From the NCBI GenBank assembly GCA_016125385.1, contig WGLV01000005.1:1-64000 (forward strand): 64,000 nt of DNA, written 5' to 3'. The notes beneath the pieces are model-generated. The model was not told the DNA's origin, did no database searches, and was given only the letters and a program-made list of their open reading frames with translations. Source of the stretch: a bacterium. GTDB taxonomy: Bacteria; Hinthialibacterota; Hinthialibacteria; Hinthialibacterales; Hinthialibacteraceae. The position numbers were made by a program, and so were the translations under genes. Positions 3,357 through 7,804 of this stretch are shown here, in pieces. Within the stretch, counting starts at the first letter, position 1; the number at the start of each line of letters is the position of its first letter.

Positions 3357-4589
3357 ATGATTATTTCCATACTCATCGCCGCAGGCTTTATCGCCACCGT
3401 CTTGCGCCCGCGTGAAATGCTGACCGCATTGCTTGCGTGCTCCGTGATCGCTGGAATCCGATTGCATTTCACCGGCGTCGAATCGTCCATCTCATGGATC
3501 GCCGCGCTGATGACTATACCTGGCTTTCTCACACGCTACTCCTTTGCCTCGCATAAAAATGATCCGCCGCACATAATCGCGTTGTTTACGCTGCTGGCCG
3601 CCTGCCTGCTCGCTTCCCTCTCGTCGCTGAATTCGGCGGAAACCGCTTTCGCGATGGCAAGAATGCTTCTCTCAATATTCACTGCCCTGGTCTTTTTGTA
3701 TGAATGTGGCCGAACGGAATCGTCATTCATGCTGAAAAGAGATATTCAGGGGATTATGGCGCTTTCAGTAGCGATTGCGTTCGTCCAGTCCTTTTTGCAG
3801 CCGGCGGGGAACTTTCACCTGAGCGGCGGCTTCTCCGATTCCAATTATTTCCCCGTAATGCTCGCGTCTCTGCTGCCACTTCTGATCGCTCGCTCGATCC
3901 ATGAGCGGTCACGTCCTCTCGCCATCCTGTCCGCCGCCGGATTTCTCGCGGCGCTTGGTTCTTTTTCCAACAGCGGCTGGCTGGTGCTGGCGCTTTCGCT
4001 TTCATTATTCGTGTGCCTGACGCTTTGGAAATCAAACCCGCGGCGGTTTGGCGTACTATTATTCATTGCACCAATGGCGGTTTTTATCGTATTCATTGCG
4101 ATTCTCACGGCATTTCACGCTCGCCTCCTCTCTGTTTTGGCTTCGCCGCGCTTGCATGAGCGAATTCTGAACCTGCAACTTTATCTCACGGAATTTTTCA
4201 CTCACCCGGTCTTGGGCGTCGGCGCAGGACAATACGCCGCGATGGCGCAACCGTTCGCGCCGGATGCGCCTCTCTCGCGGGAATATTCAACGGTGTTATT
4301 GATGTTTACGGAATCTGGCGTCTTTGGCGGGATCGCGTTGATCGTATTTCTTACGCTTACTCTCCGTGGATTCCTGGATCAATCGCGTAACGATATGGAT
4401 GAGCTGAAACGTGCGGCGCTGCTGACCAGCGCCTCAGCCCTGATCGTGGGCATGCTGATCTCCAATGCGGGCGATTTCCTCTTCACATGGTGCTGGCTGG
4501 GCTGGTTGGCGGCGCAATCGGCTCAACCGGATGAGTTAAACGCTGACTTTACCGCTTCCCTCGAATCGGAGCCCGCCCGATCGGTTTAA
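3357..4589 (+). CDS. O-antigen ligase / polysaccharide polymerase-like membrane protein, 410 aa
   Basis: A multi-pass inner-membrane protein with about ten hydrophobic segments. The large periplasmic-loop region around residues 265-310 carries HERILNLQLYLTEFFTHPVLGVGAGQY, split by charged residues, followed by FTESGVFGGIALIVFL. The pattern 'P-hL-G-x-G-x-x' followed by a late membrane pair is the signature of the Wzy/WaaL O-antigen ligase superfamily (PF04932). Such proteins transfer or polymerise undecaprenyl-linked glycans on the periplasmic face. The start is uncertain because no strong ribosome site precedes 3357. Its 3' end overlaps the convergent secretin-core gene by 41 bp. No other polysaccharide genes lie directly adjacent, so whether it acts as ligase or polymerase is unknown. 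Confidence 0.75.
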   Translation: MIISILIAAGFIATVLRPREMLTALLACSVIAGIRLHFTGVESSISWIAALMTIPGFLTRYSFASHKNDPPHIIALFTLLAACLLASLSSLNSAETAFAMARMLLSIFTALVFLYECGRTESSFMLKRDIQGIMALSVAIAFVQSFLQPAGNFHLSGGFSDSNYFPVMLASLLPLLIARSIHERSRPLAILSAAGFLAALGSFSNSGWLVLALSLSLFVCLTLWKSNPRRFGVLLFIAPMAVFIVFIAILTAFHARLLSVLASPRLHERILNLQLYLTEFFTHPVLGVGAGQYAAMAQPFAPDAPLSREYSTVLLMFTESGVFGGIALIVFLTLTLRGFLDQSRNDMDELKRAALLTSASALIVGMLISNAGDFLFTWCWLGWLAAQSAQPDELNADFTASLESEPARSV

Positions 4590-5694
4590 ATCGTCGCGTC
4601 GATTCTTTGCTTTCATCCACCGTAAATTCGTTCGAGACCGACTGCACCGGCGCGCCGGTGGCTGATTCGATCAGTTCCTTGGGTATTTCAGGGACGAAAG
4701 TCTGATTGGATGACGAGTTCGATTGCGCCGAATCATCGCTTTGCGGAGGCGCCGAACCCGATGAAGCGTCGTTTGATGGCGTCTTGGGCGGCTCGATGAT
4801 GACTTCCTTGGTCGACTCATCGCCCAGAATCTTGTCAAATCCGGTCAATTGCGTTGAAAGCCCCGCCCCGGGAGCGCGGATGGTTGGCGTAATCTGAAAC
4901 ATGGTTTCGGATGTCCCGCGCTTTTTGTTGAAGCCGCGCAGGAAAAACCCGATCACCGGCAGATCGCCCACAATGGGGACCTTGCGCGTGATGTCGCCAG
5001 TCGTTCGTGAATACAGCCCGCCGATGTAAAAGCGCTGTCCGGAGGGAATAATCACTACCGTTTGCACCGTCCGGCTCGAAATCACCGGTAACTCATACCG
5101 CTGCCCGTCGCCACGGTCGAATACGACGAATCGAACCACGTCGTTAGAAGAAATCTCCAGATCGAGAAGCACGTTATTGCCCGGCATGATGTACGGTGTT
5201 ACGTTCAGGCTGATGCCGGTGGGTTTTTCTTCCAGCGCCAGCGTGGTACGGGTTCCCTTCACCTGCACGGTGGTGTATGGAATCTGCTCGCCACTGTGAA
5301 TATTGGCCGTGATGCCGTTTGCGGTGGTCAGGGTCGGGTTGCTGATCACCGTGCCCCATCCCTCGTCGATGGCGGCTTTTACGTTGAAGTCGATCGAGCC
5401 GTAGCTGAGTTTCGCGAAACTGCCGCTCAGATCGAGCGCCCCGATGGGGGCGTCCGTGCTGGGGTTTTCCGTTCCGTGCAGAAATACGTCGCTGTCCTGC
5501 AGGGCGCTGTCGTCGCTGTTGAATTGATAAAAAATCCCGAACTGGGTTTCAGTATCGTATCGAAATTCGAATATCTTCGCTGAAATTTCCACCATGGGGC
5601 CGATCGACGGCTGCGCCGAAGCCCACGCGGCCCCCGCGATCACGGCCGCCAGCATCAGAAACGAACGTCGGGTTGACCAGTAAGTTGCTTTCAT
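4549..5694 (-). CDS. Stand-alone secretin-core protein (type II/III secretion family), 381 aa
   Basis: A secretory protein with an N-terminal signal peptide (hydrophobic stretch residues 12-25, cleavage plausible after ASA). Almost all of the mature part is the C-terminal secretin barrel domain (PF00263): VEISAKIFEF near the start, then GWGTVISNPTLTT, SGEQIPYTTVQ, GISLNVTPYI, VQTVVIIPSGQRFYIGGLY, and the lip motif VPIVGDLPVIGFFLRG. The usual periplasmic N0/N1/N3 domains of GspD, PilQ or CpaC are missing, so the protein is about half the family's usual length. A Ser/Gln/Pro-rich tail of about 90 residues follows the barrel. It is the third gene of a minus-strand operon, two bases behind a second secretin-core gene. 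It would form, or help to form, an outer-membrane pore. Confidence 0.82.
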   Translation of the reverse strand: MKATYWSTRRSFLMLAAVIAGAAWASAQPSIGPMVEISAKIFEFRYDTETQFGIFYQFNSDDSALQDSDVFLHGTENPSTDAPIGALDLSGSFAKLSYGSIDFNVKAAIDEGWGTVISNPTLTTANGITANIHSGEQIPYTTVQVKGTRTTLALEEKPTGISLNVTPYIMPGNNVLLDLEISSNDVVRFVVFDRGDGQRYELPVISSRTVQTVVIIPSGQRFYIGGLYSRTTGDITRKVPIVGDLPVIGFFLRGFNKKRGTSETMFQITPTIRAPGAGLSTQLTGFDKILGDESTKEVIIEPPKTPSNDASSGSAPPQSDDSAQSNSSSNQTFVPEIPKELIESATGAPVQSVSNEFTVDESKESTRRFKPIGRAPIRGKR

Positions 5695-5696
5695 GA

Positions 5697-6797
5697 TTAC
5701 TGCTCCGGAGCGGAATTATCGAGGAACAGGTCGCGGATCTCGCCGAGGGGATCCGGCTTCGGCTCCAGATCGAGCGTCTTCTGATTGAGAAATTCACGGA
5801 TCATCTTGGATTGCTGTTCCAACGGAATCAGGCTCGACGTGTTGTCCCAGATATTCAGCACCGCCGGGCGGATCATCACGAACAGCTGTGAAATCGTCGT
5901 CGATTCCGTCGTCCCTCGAAACAGGCGTCCAAGAATGGGGATATCCATCAGCAGGGGAATCCCGCGAATCTTGTCCAACTTCGTATCCTTGAACAGGCTG
6001 CCGATCAGAATCCGCTCGCCCGCCTTCAGCCAGACCGACGATTTATACTGCCGCGTGTCGGTGATCGGTTGCAGGAATCCTTCTTCTTCACGATACCGGG
6101 TGATGGAGTTCAACTCGGCGTCGATCGTCACGTAGATGAACGGGTTTTTCTTCTCAACGTCCGTTTCCAGAAATTGCACCCACGGCGTAATCTCCAGATT
6201 GACGCCGGTCTCCCTGAATTTCGTCTCCAGCGTAATCGCGTCGCCGATGTTGATACGCGACAGAAATGGAATATCATCGCCCGCTTTCAACTTGGCGGGA
6301 TATCCTGAAATCGTCAACAGAATCGGATTGGCGTGAACCCGAACCATCTGGTCCTGCGCCAGCGCCTGAATGGTCGCCAGCACTTCGCTTTCATTCCCGT
6401 CGAATACTCGCGCCACGACGTTCGCGCCGGAGGGCAGAAGTTGATTCCGGTTCCCCGGCTGCAGAACGCTCAGGTCGCTCTCCGTGACTGGGTCTCCGGA
6501 AAGGCTCGTCCCGCGAAAGTCGCCCGCTTCGCCAAGAAGATCGTAAACAAAACCGATATCAAGTTGATTCGTCAGCAAAACTTCGAATATATTGACTTCG
6601 AGAAACACCTGCAACGGGTGGGTCGCGCTGCGGATCGCGCTCACCTGGTCGCCGTTGAGCATTTTGCCTCCGGTCGATCCCTTGTCCTGAGCCCAGGCTT
6701 CGGGGGTGAAAAATCCGCTGAGCGCGATCAGAGAAAAAACGGCGATGAGCGTGATCGGAAGCGCCAGCAGCGCGTACGGCGTCTTGTCATGCTTCAT
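5697..6797 (-). CDS. Second stand-alone secretin-core protein, 366 aa
   Basis: The start at 6797 gives a classic signal peptide (MKHDK, a hydrophobic core and cleavage near AWAQ). A longer form from a GTG at 6830 overlaps the upstream stop codon and adds only a charged extension. The mature protein again is a secretin core without N-domains: VFLEVNIFEV, MVRVHANPILLTISG, AGDDIPFLSRI, TGVNLEITPWVQF, SVWLKAGERILIGSLF, and the lip motif IPLLMDIPILGRLFRG. The sequence is only distantly similar to the following secretin-core gene, so it is not a recent duplicate. A short C-terminal region (KTLDLEPKPDPLGEIRDLF) could bind a partner. It is co-transcribed between the TPR lipoprotein gene and the other secretin-core gene. 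Confidence 0.82.
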   Translation of the reverse strand: MKHDKTPYALLALPITLIAVFSLIALSGFFTPEAWAQDKGSTGGKMLNGDQVSAIRSATHPLQVFLEVNIFEVLLTNQLDIGFVYDLLGEAGDFRGTSLSGDPVTESDLSVLQPGNRNQLLPSGANVVARVFDGNESEVLATIQALAQDQMVRVHANPILLTISGYPAKLKAGDDIPFLSRINIGDAITLETKFRETGVNLEITPWVQFLETDVEKKNPFIYVTIDAELNSITRYREEEGFLQPITDTRQYKSSVWLKAGERILIGSLFKDTKLDKIRGIPLLMDIPILGRLFRGTTESTTISQLFVMIRPAVLNIWDNTSSLIPLEQQSKMIREFLNQKTLDLEPKPDPLGEIRDLFLDNSAPEQ

Positions 6798-6826
6798 GGT
6801 GGGTTCCCGTTCGGGCCGATGCATGA

Positions 6827-7804
6827 TCACTCGTAAAAGACCTGCGTCGTGAATTTTTTGATATCGATCGCCTGATCGGTGATCTGGTCGAAAACGGTGG
6901 AAAAGGCGCGGGCGCCGCCGGCGGGCAAAACCCCGATCATGACGGTTTGTGTTCCCTGCACCTTGTTATAAAAATCGTAAATCGTCACTTCTACCTGAAC
7001 GCTGCGCACGTCTTTCAGCCCGTTGTTTTTCACCTGGCCCGATACCTTCACCGCTTCGTAATCGCCCAGCCAGTTGCTGCGGTAAATCCGGTCCAGCTTG
7101 GCGTCGACCTGAATGTCACCTTGAGGACCATTGGGTTCGAACAGAGGGTTACGGATGACGAAATCGCCCTGCTGCGTCACACGGACGCGTTGCTTGATGG
7201 TATCCGCCTGCATCAGCGCGGGATTCAGTTCGGCTGCTTTTTTGTATTGTGCGACCGCTTCGTCGTACCGCCCCGCCTCCCAGTAGTAATCGCCCAGTTG
7301 ATAGTGTGCGTTGGCGTCTTGCGGGTTCGCTTCAATCAGCGCCTCGACTTTGCTGATGTTTTGTTGAAGGGTGTTGTTTCGTTCAGTCAGCTGTTCTTTC
7401 GCCTGAGTCAGCTTGGTCTGGCATTTGGCGATGATCTCTTCCGCTTCAGGATTCTGAGGGTAACTGGGGTTGCTTTTTACCAGTTCGCTTAATGTGGTGT
7501 AGGCGTCCTGATATTCACCCATCAGATAGTGGGTCAGCCCTAACCGGTAGCGGGCGTAATCGATCTGCGTCTGGTTTGGAAAGGAAGAATAGACGTAACT
7601 GCTGTAGAGCAATTGTGCGCGCTGGTAATTCCGCAGTTCAAAATAGTGATCCGCCTGGCTGATCAGCGAGTCGAACGAACGGTCGTTCAGGTTTTCCGAT
7701 CCGGTTGTCACGCATGAGATCATGACTGAAGTCAGCGCGATCCCAAGCAAAATAAAAACGGTTTCTCTCCAGGTTCTCGTCATCACCGCAGGGAGCCTTT
7801 GCAT
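6827..7804 (-). CDS. TPR-repeat lipoprotein, possible secretin pilotin, 325 aa
   Basis: The N-terminus has a hydrophobic segment followed by VMIS-Cys31, an acceptable though not ideal lipobox, so the mature protein is probably an outer-membrane lipoprotein. Residues about 45-200 hold tetratricopeptide-like repeats (ADHYFELRNYQRAQLLYSSY, YRLGLTHYLMGEYQDAYTTL, AHYQLGDYYWEAGRYDEAVA). A C-terminal domain with KVSGQVKNNGLKDVRSVQVEVTIYD resembles FxLYD/DUF3426-type beta-sandwich domains. TPR lipoproteins such as PilF/PilW act as pilotins that insert secretins into the outer membrane. Because this gene is the first of an operon with two secretin-core genes, a pilotin or scaffold role is a reasonable inference. 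The next gene starts at or just after its stop. Confidence 0.75.
   Translation of the reverse strand: MQRLPAVMTRTWRETVFILLGIALTSVMISCVTTGSENLNDRSFDSLISQADHYFELRNYQRAQLLYSSYVYSSFPNQTQIDYARYRLGLTHYLMGEYQDAYTTLSELVKSNPSYPQNPEAEEIIAKCQTKLTQAKEQLTERNNTLQQNISKVEALIEANPQDANAHYQLGDYYWEAGRYDEAVAQYKKAAELNPALMQADTIKQRVRVTQQGDFVIRNPLFEPNGPQGDIQVDAKLDRIYRSNWLGDYEAVKVSGQVKNNGLKDVRSVQVEVTIYDFYNKVQGTQTVMIGVLPAGGARAFSTVFDQITDQAIDIKKFTTQVFYE

Follow-up and report, generated by a model that had tools for sequence, protein, structure and literature searches.

In the current understanding, a secretin forms the outer ring of a machine that spans the cell envelope, to which it docks by its N-domains. The closest precedent for secretins without these domains is found in mitochondria, where purified GspD, which lacks N0-N3 and the S-domain, makes stable pores, and where a divergent second paralogue, GspDL, exists (PMC8134430, PMC10128026). 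In bacteria, the short secretin KilC of the Myxococcus Kil/Tad-like system lacks N0 (PMC8460266), rhizobial-type type III secretion system (T3SS) secretins are split into RhcC1 and RhcC2 (PMC3574062), and imaging of membrane tubes of Flavobacterium has shown secretin-like particles that lack an inner-membrane partner (PMC8455137). For the secretin RcpA of the Tad system, the tetratricopeptide repeat (TPR) lipoprotein TadD binds C-terminal residues and is needed for RcpA assembly and outer-membrane localization (PMC10499894). Here we analyze a locus in a 64,000-nucleotide stretch of bacterial DNA (the window; positions 1 to 64,000 of contig WGLV01000005.1, assembly GCA_016125385.1, class Hinthialibacteria). 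In this locus, a gene for a TPR lipoprotein with a C-terminal FxLYD domain (T) is directly followed by genes for two secretins reduced to their core (A and B). We tentatively propose, with somewhat less than even confidence, that this trio represents a previously undescribed module for transport across the outer membrane, which is core to one phylum as well as to most of a second one, and in which two secretins without N-domains form a hetero-oligomeric pore that is combined with the TPR-FxLYD lipoprotein and operates without a dedicated inner-membrane machine.

Like the trio, the mitochondrial pair comprises two paralogous core-only secretins lacking N0-N3, one of them more divergent. Unlike the trio, it belongs to a set that includes GspE, GspF, and GspG as well as separate N-domain proteins, and a TPR-FxLYD lipoprotein is not described there. 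In the Tad system, a secretin depends on a TPR lipoprotein, as we infer for the trio; however, RcpA carries a VirB9-like N-domain within a full Tad system, and TadD has five TPRs, with no FxLYD domain noted (PMC10499894). PilQ and its partners PilF, PilW, and Tgl also combine a secretin with a TPR outer-membrane lipoprotein, as in the trio, where the T gene adjoins the secretin genes. In contrast to these proteins, T scores below the cut-offs of the PilW and Tgl models and has an FxLYD domain, and A and B lack periplasmic N-domains. RhcC1/RhcC2, together with split GspD proteins of the window's own class (see below), resemble the trio in that the secretin core is encoded apart from the N-domains, but their N-domain partner lies in the same system, whereas the trio has none nearby and two cores instead. 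KilC differs in being encoded by one gene within a system that also has an ATPase, a platform, and pilins. Neither KilC nor the split T3SS secretins nor the Flavobacterium particles combine a core-only pair and a TPR-FxLYD lipoprotein away from machine loci, and in the open-access library searched we found no reports of bacterial stand-alone or split type II secretion system (T2SS) secretins.

T (6827-7804), A (5697-6830, 377 aa), and B (4549-5694, 381 aa) are three adjacent genes on the minus strand. The GTG at 6830 overlaps the T stop codon, so that the T and A genes overlap if A starts there; A probably starts instead at the ATG at 6797, because homologues begin at that position. Sigma-70 promoters and terminators around the trio showed no excess over shuffled sequence. 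An earlier note on this stretch, made from the sequence alone, had described A and B as secretins that keep the membrane-barrel core, lack N0, N1, and N3, and are diverged from each other, and each part of that description holds. Both proteins consist of a signal peptide, a secretin core, and a C-terminal tail, which in B is of low complexity and ends in basic residues. Pfam Secretin (PF00263) matched A (E = 2.3e-30, with no second family matched) and B (E = 1.1e-36), and the two are ∼25% identical over the core. In A, the core spans residues 74 to 325 (5856-6611) and begins ∼25 residues past the signal peptide. In B, it begins at about residue 35 (34 to 35), ∼7 residues past the signal peptide, and extends to residue 272 (4879-5595). 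Because the cores start just after the signal peptides, neither protein has room for an N-domain of ∼70 residues. Profile searches aligned A from its first core strand to GspD (6i1x) position 228 onward, reaching the end of the secretin domain (positions 228 to 482), and matched B to this domain of GspD structures. Compared with solved GspD and PilQ, the secretin core of both proteins is complete.

The lack of N-domains is shared by trio secretins elsewhere. We tested 65 of these, 22 from the window's class and 43 aligned from a second phylum in which the trio recurs. All 65 matched the Secretin model (22/22 and 43/43), and none matched Secretin_N, STN, GspD_N0, or AMIN. A and B did not reach the curated full-length models for GspD (90.5 to 122 bits versus a cut-off of 351) or PilQ (86 to 115 bits versus a cut-off of 284). 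A motif scan detected a loop-type motif in A (IPLLMDIPILGRLF, 5919-5960) and one of the same kind in B (VPIVGDLPVIGFFL, 4939-4980), as well as in 19/21 second-phylum B-type secretins. From known secretin structures, we take this motif to be the amphipathic helical loop that inserts into the membrane.

T is predicted to be a lipoprotein and is a candidate pilotin or adaptor. Its signal peptide (7712-7804) runs up to lipobox Cys31, with VMISC at its end and VTTG following; the cysteine is kept in 10/11 class homologues and is near-invariant in a 23-sequence alignment spanning both phyla. TPR models matched T down to E = 1.3e-13. The C-terminal FxLYD domain (Ig-like; NCBIfam NF038353, 38.8 bits versus a cut-off of 23), which occurs in 11/11 class T proteins, occupies residues 249 to 309 (6878-7060) and is all-beta in a low-confidence AlphaFold2 (AF2) model. 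The earlier note had likened T to PilF/PilW-type pilotins. A generic TPR resemblance stands, but T falls far below the PilW (20 bits versus a cut-off of 154) and Tgl (32.4 versus 225) models and has the additional FxLYD domain. From these comparisons, T appears closer to BamD/YbgF-type TPR proteins with an FxLYD domain added than to PilF/PilW.

The trio recurs in related genomes, beyond what chance would explain. T was detected in 10 other genomes of the class, representing families f1 (that of the window), f2, f3, and f5 and not found in f4, and the order T-A-B was the same in all 10, with A always second and B always third. Family f1 shows wide synteny around the trio, including a Wzy_C-like gene after B. 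Outside f1, the trio is flanked by leuCD (f2), by a glycosyltransferase, a DUF3108 protein, and isoprenoid-type genes (f3), or by other genes (f5); apart from DUF3108, these names are our reading of the sequences. The neighbors differ among families while the order of the trio holds; the conserved unit is the trio, not its surroundings. No ATPase or inner-membrane platform gene was detected among the trio's neighbors in the class or among its recurrent neighbors in the second phylum, and in no genome read from either phylum does the trio lie inside a T2SS, type IV pilus (T4P), or Tad locus. The earlier note's picture of a self-contained unit, with the lipoprotein gene directly ahead of the secretin pair and no secretion ATPase, platform, or peptidase gene adjacent, is thus borne out. 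Neither of the two findings that the note had named as refuting it, a complete type II or IV secretion locus around the genes or overlooked N-domains, was encountered.

A wide scan detected short secretins in genome G153, which revealed the second-phylum form of the locus, where genes for an OmpH/Skp-like protein (S), a T homologue (blastp against the window's T, 1.3e-22), and two core-only secretins are followed by lnt/murJ-like genes. We surveyed T in a sample of 386 genomes, 372 of them outside the window's class. At E ≤ 1e-18, matches occurred only in this class and the second phylum, with full-length T outside the class in 2/372 genomes, both from the second phylum. Within that phylum, T was detected in 64/68 genomes, and the order S-T-secretin-secretin was found at 27/31 loci read, the remaining 4 being cut by contig ends. 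Downstream lie lnt in 19 loci (5 families) and murJ in 14 loci (5 families). In the window's class, OmpH-like S was not found beyond one match at E = 0.007. Phylogenetic analysis placed A and B of the class in one clade (88/92), as expected of duplicated partners. In the second phylum, first and second secretins were each monophyletic (100/100) on long branches; given these branch lengths, the pairs of the two phyla may derive from one duplication or from two, both of which fit the tree.

The sequences show that A and B, exported secretins, retain just a barrel/gate core and a tail, that T is predicted to be a lipoprotein, and that the genes for all three stay linked. We consider the chances roughly even that T, A, and B form one complex, in which two core-only secretins make up a pore in the outer membrane and a pilotin-like lipoprotein of their own puts them in place. 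In the working model, T, being a lipoprotein, would be delivered to the outer membrane and would act as the pilotin of A and/or B, by analogy with the TadD-RcpA precedent. A and B would assemble by themselves into a gated pore of the secretin type; a mixed or paired ring is the most likely form, given that both genes are retained throughout. A core-only pore is plausible since purified mitochondrial GspD forms pores. The TPR/FxLYD part of T would form the periplasmic entrance or adaptor of the pore. Most likely, cargo that has already been exported to the periplasm would cross the outer membrane without a dedicated ATPase, which is the simplest reading because the machine is missing beside the trio. 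In the second phylum, the set also includes the OmpH/Skp-like S, probably a dedicated periplasmic chaperone. If this model is correct, a set that retains just the pore core, in two copies and with a lipoprotein of its own, that is near-universal in one phylum, and that lies away from every known machine locus would mean that secretins can act as stand-alone outer-membrane devices. For the puzzling mitochondrial core-only pair GspD/GspDL, the trio would provide a counterpart in bacteria, and it would make hetero-oligomeric secretins directly testable.

Several observations weigh against this model. In family f1, the A proteins share a conserved C-terminal end (about E-F-R-E-L-F-I-D), a putative T-binding site, but the motif is kept only in f1 and does not extend to f2. 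The T protein of family f5 lacks the lipobox cysteine. AF2 models had low confidence (predicted local distance difference test scores of 48 for T and 37 for B) and were too poor to use in a fold search. The canonical loop motif is absent from 22/22 first secretins of the second phylum; therefore, one subunit of the pair may fail to enter the membrane, and the roles of the two may be unequal. Lastly, type IV filament genes are present in all genomes checked (T2SSE in 14/14 genomes of the class and T2SSF in 68/68 of the second phylum). Independence of the trio therefore cannot be argued from the absence of a machine, and we discarded absence of T2SSF as a proof of it.

These last two observations bear on rival explanations. 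The trio could be the outer-membrane end of an unlinked T2SS, T4P, or Tad machine whose N-domains are supplied in trans, an alternative that we regard as possible but rather unlikely. Several type IV filament machines exist in both phyla, and separate N-domain proteins are known for mitochondrial GspD/GspDL (GspDN1-3; PMC8134430). Within the window's genome, a T2SS on another contig (C53) has a split GspD, of which the first protein (493 aa) comprises N0 plus four Secretin_N repeats and the second (405 aa) is the core, which carries a signal peptide of its own. Split GspD was also detected in six other genomes (G001, G002, G003, G005, G006, and G008), and three more (G004, G007, and G011) have similar short core frames. 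Core-only secretins accompanied by separate N-domains are thus habitual in the class, and split GspD provides cores that already work in this way. The genome also encodes one orphan Secretin_N protein, on contig C29, as a candidate partner for the trio. However, this protein was found only in family f1, which speaks against it as the missing N-domain partner. Split-GspD cores grouped in the tree with GspD-type secretins, apart from A and B, and the tree thus does not support A and B as copies of these cores. Of the eight secretins in the genome, the six other than A and B all occupy their own T2SS-, T4P-, or Tad-type loci, and the trio is never beside such machine genes in the genomes read. 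The genome has 11 strong matches to the T2SSE ATPase, none of them on the window's contig (206,868 bp); the nearest is on another contig.

A second possibility, which we judge less probable still, is that the complex is asymmetric, with one secretin forming the pore and the other serving as a gate, plug, or assembly factor that does not itself insert. The uneven distribution of the loop motif in the second phylum, where the first secretin lacks it and the second mostly keeps it, is consistent with this idea, as is the weaker Secretin match of the first secretin (best E = 8.8e-21, versus 3.7e-37 for the second). Mitochondrial GspDL is likewise the more divergent paralogue (PMC8134430). In the window, though, both A and B have the motif and a complete core. 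The earlier note had also raised export of glycan from the adjacent ligase-like protein, so that the trio would secrete polysaccharide made with this O-antigen ligase-like neighbor. A Wzy_C-like gene (E = 1.2e-5, under the curated cut-off) is indeed convergent to B in the window and in five other f1 members. However, it lies on the strand opposite to the trio, is not beside the trio in f2, f3, or f5, and is not a recurrent neighbor in the second phylum; outside f1, its place beside the trio is taken by the family-specific flanking genes or by lnt/murJ. Secretins are, to our knowledge, not known as glycan exporters, and we regard this explanation as very improbable.

Further observations concern secretins and machine components elsewhere. 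The split GspD of the window's genome lies at L009:7692-10409 (G000:C53), with counterparts at L060, L061, L064, L065, L066, and L067; the last N-domain is cut between the two genes. The orphan periplasmic protein on C29 (L076:4696-6291, G000:C29) has a coiled-coil-like N-terminus and one Secretin_N domain, with no secretin core. Contig C12 of the same genome encodes a 954-aa T2SSE ATPase with N-terminal TPRs (L071:9467-12328, G000:C12) and no obvious adjoining GspF or pilin genes. A scan of named genomes with A detected one distant relative, on a gammaproteobacterial contig; among the viral contigs scanned, relatives were not found. In another phylum, tandem short secretins of 352 and 372 aa, with one Secretin_N each, lie beside an AMIN/TPR protein and near GspE/GspF-like genes (L055:8557-12481, G219:C90). 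As these proteins carry Secretin_N and adjoin pilus-type genes, we rejected them as the same system.

In the second phylum, a divergent gene of ∼880 aa that weakly resembles GH42 precedes the four-gene set in 21 loci from 8 families (e.g., L126:2661-5294). Extra copies also occur there: T-secretin-secretin is present twice in tandem in G300 (L143, G300:C288), and three secretins stand in a row in G302 (L144, G302:C631). Elsewhere, an OmpH-like gene and a single 294-aa core-only secretin gene lie beside folE2 (L059:728-2125, G142:C41), a possible simpler relative of the set.

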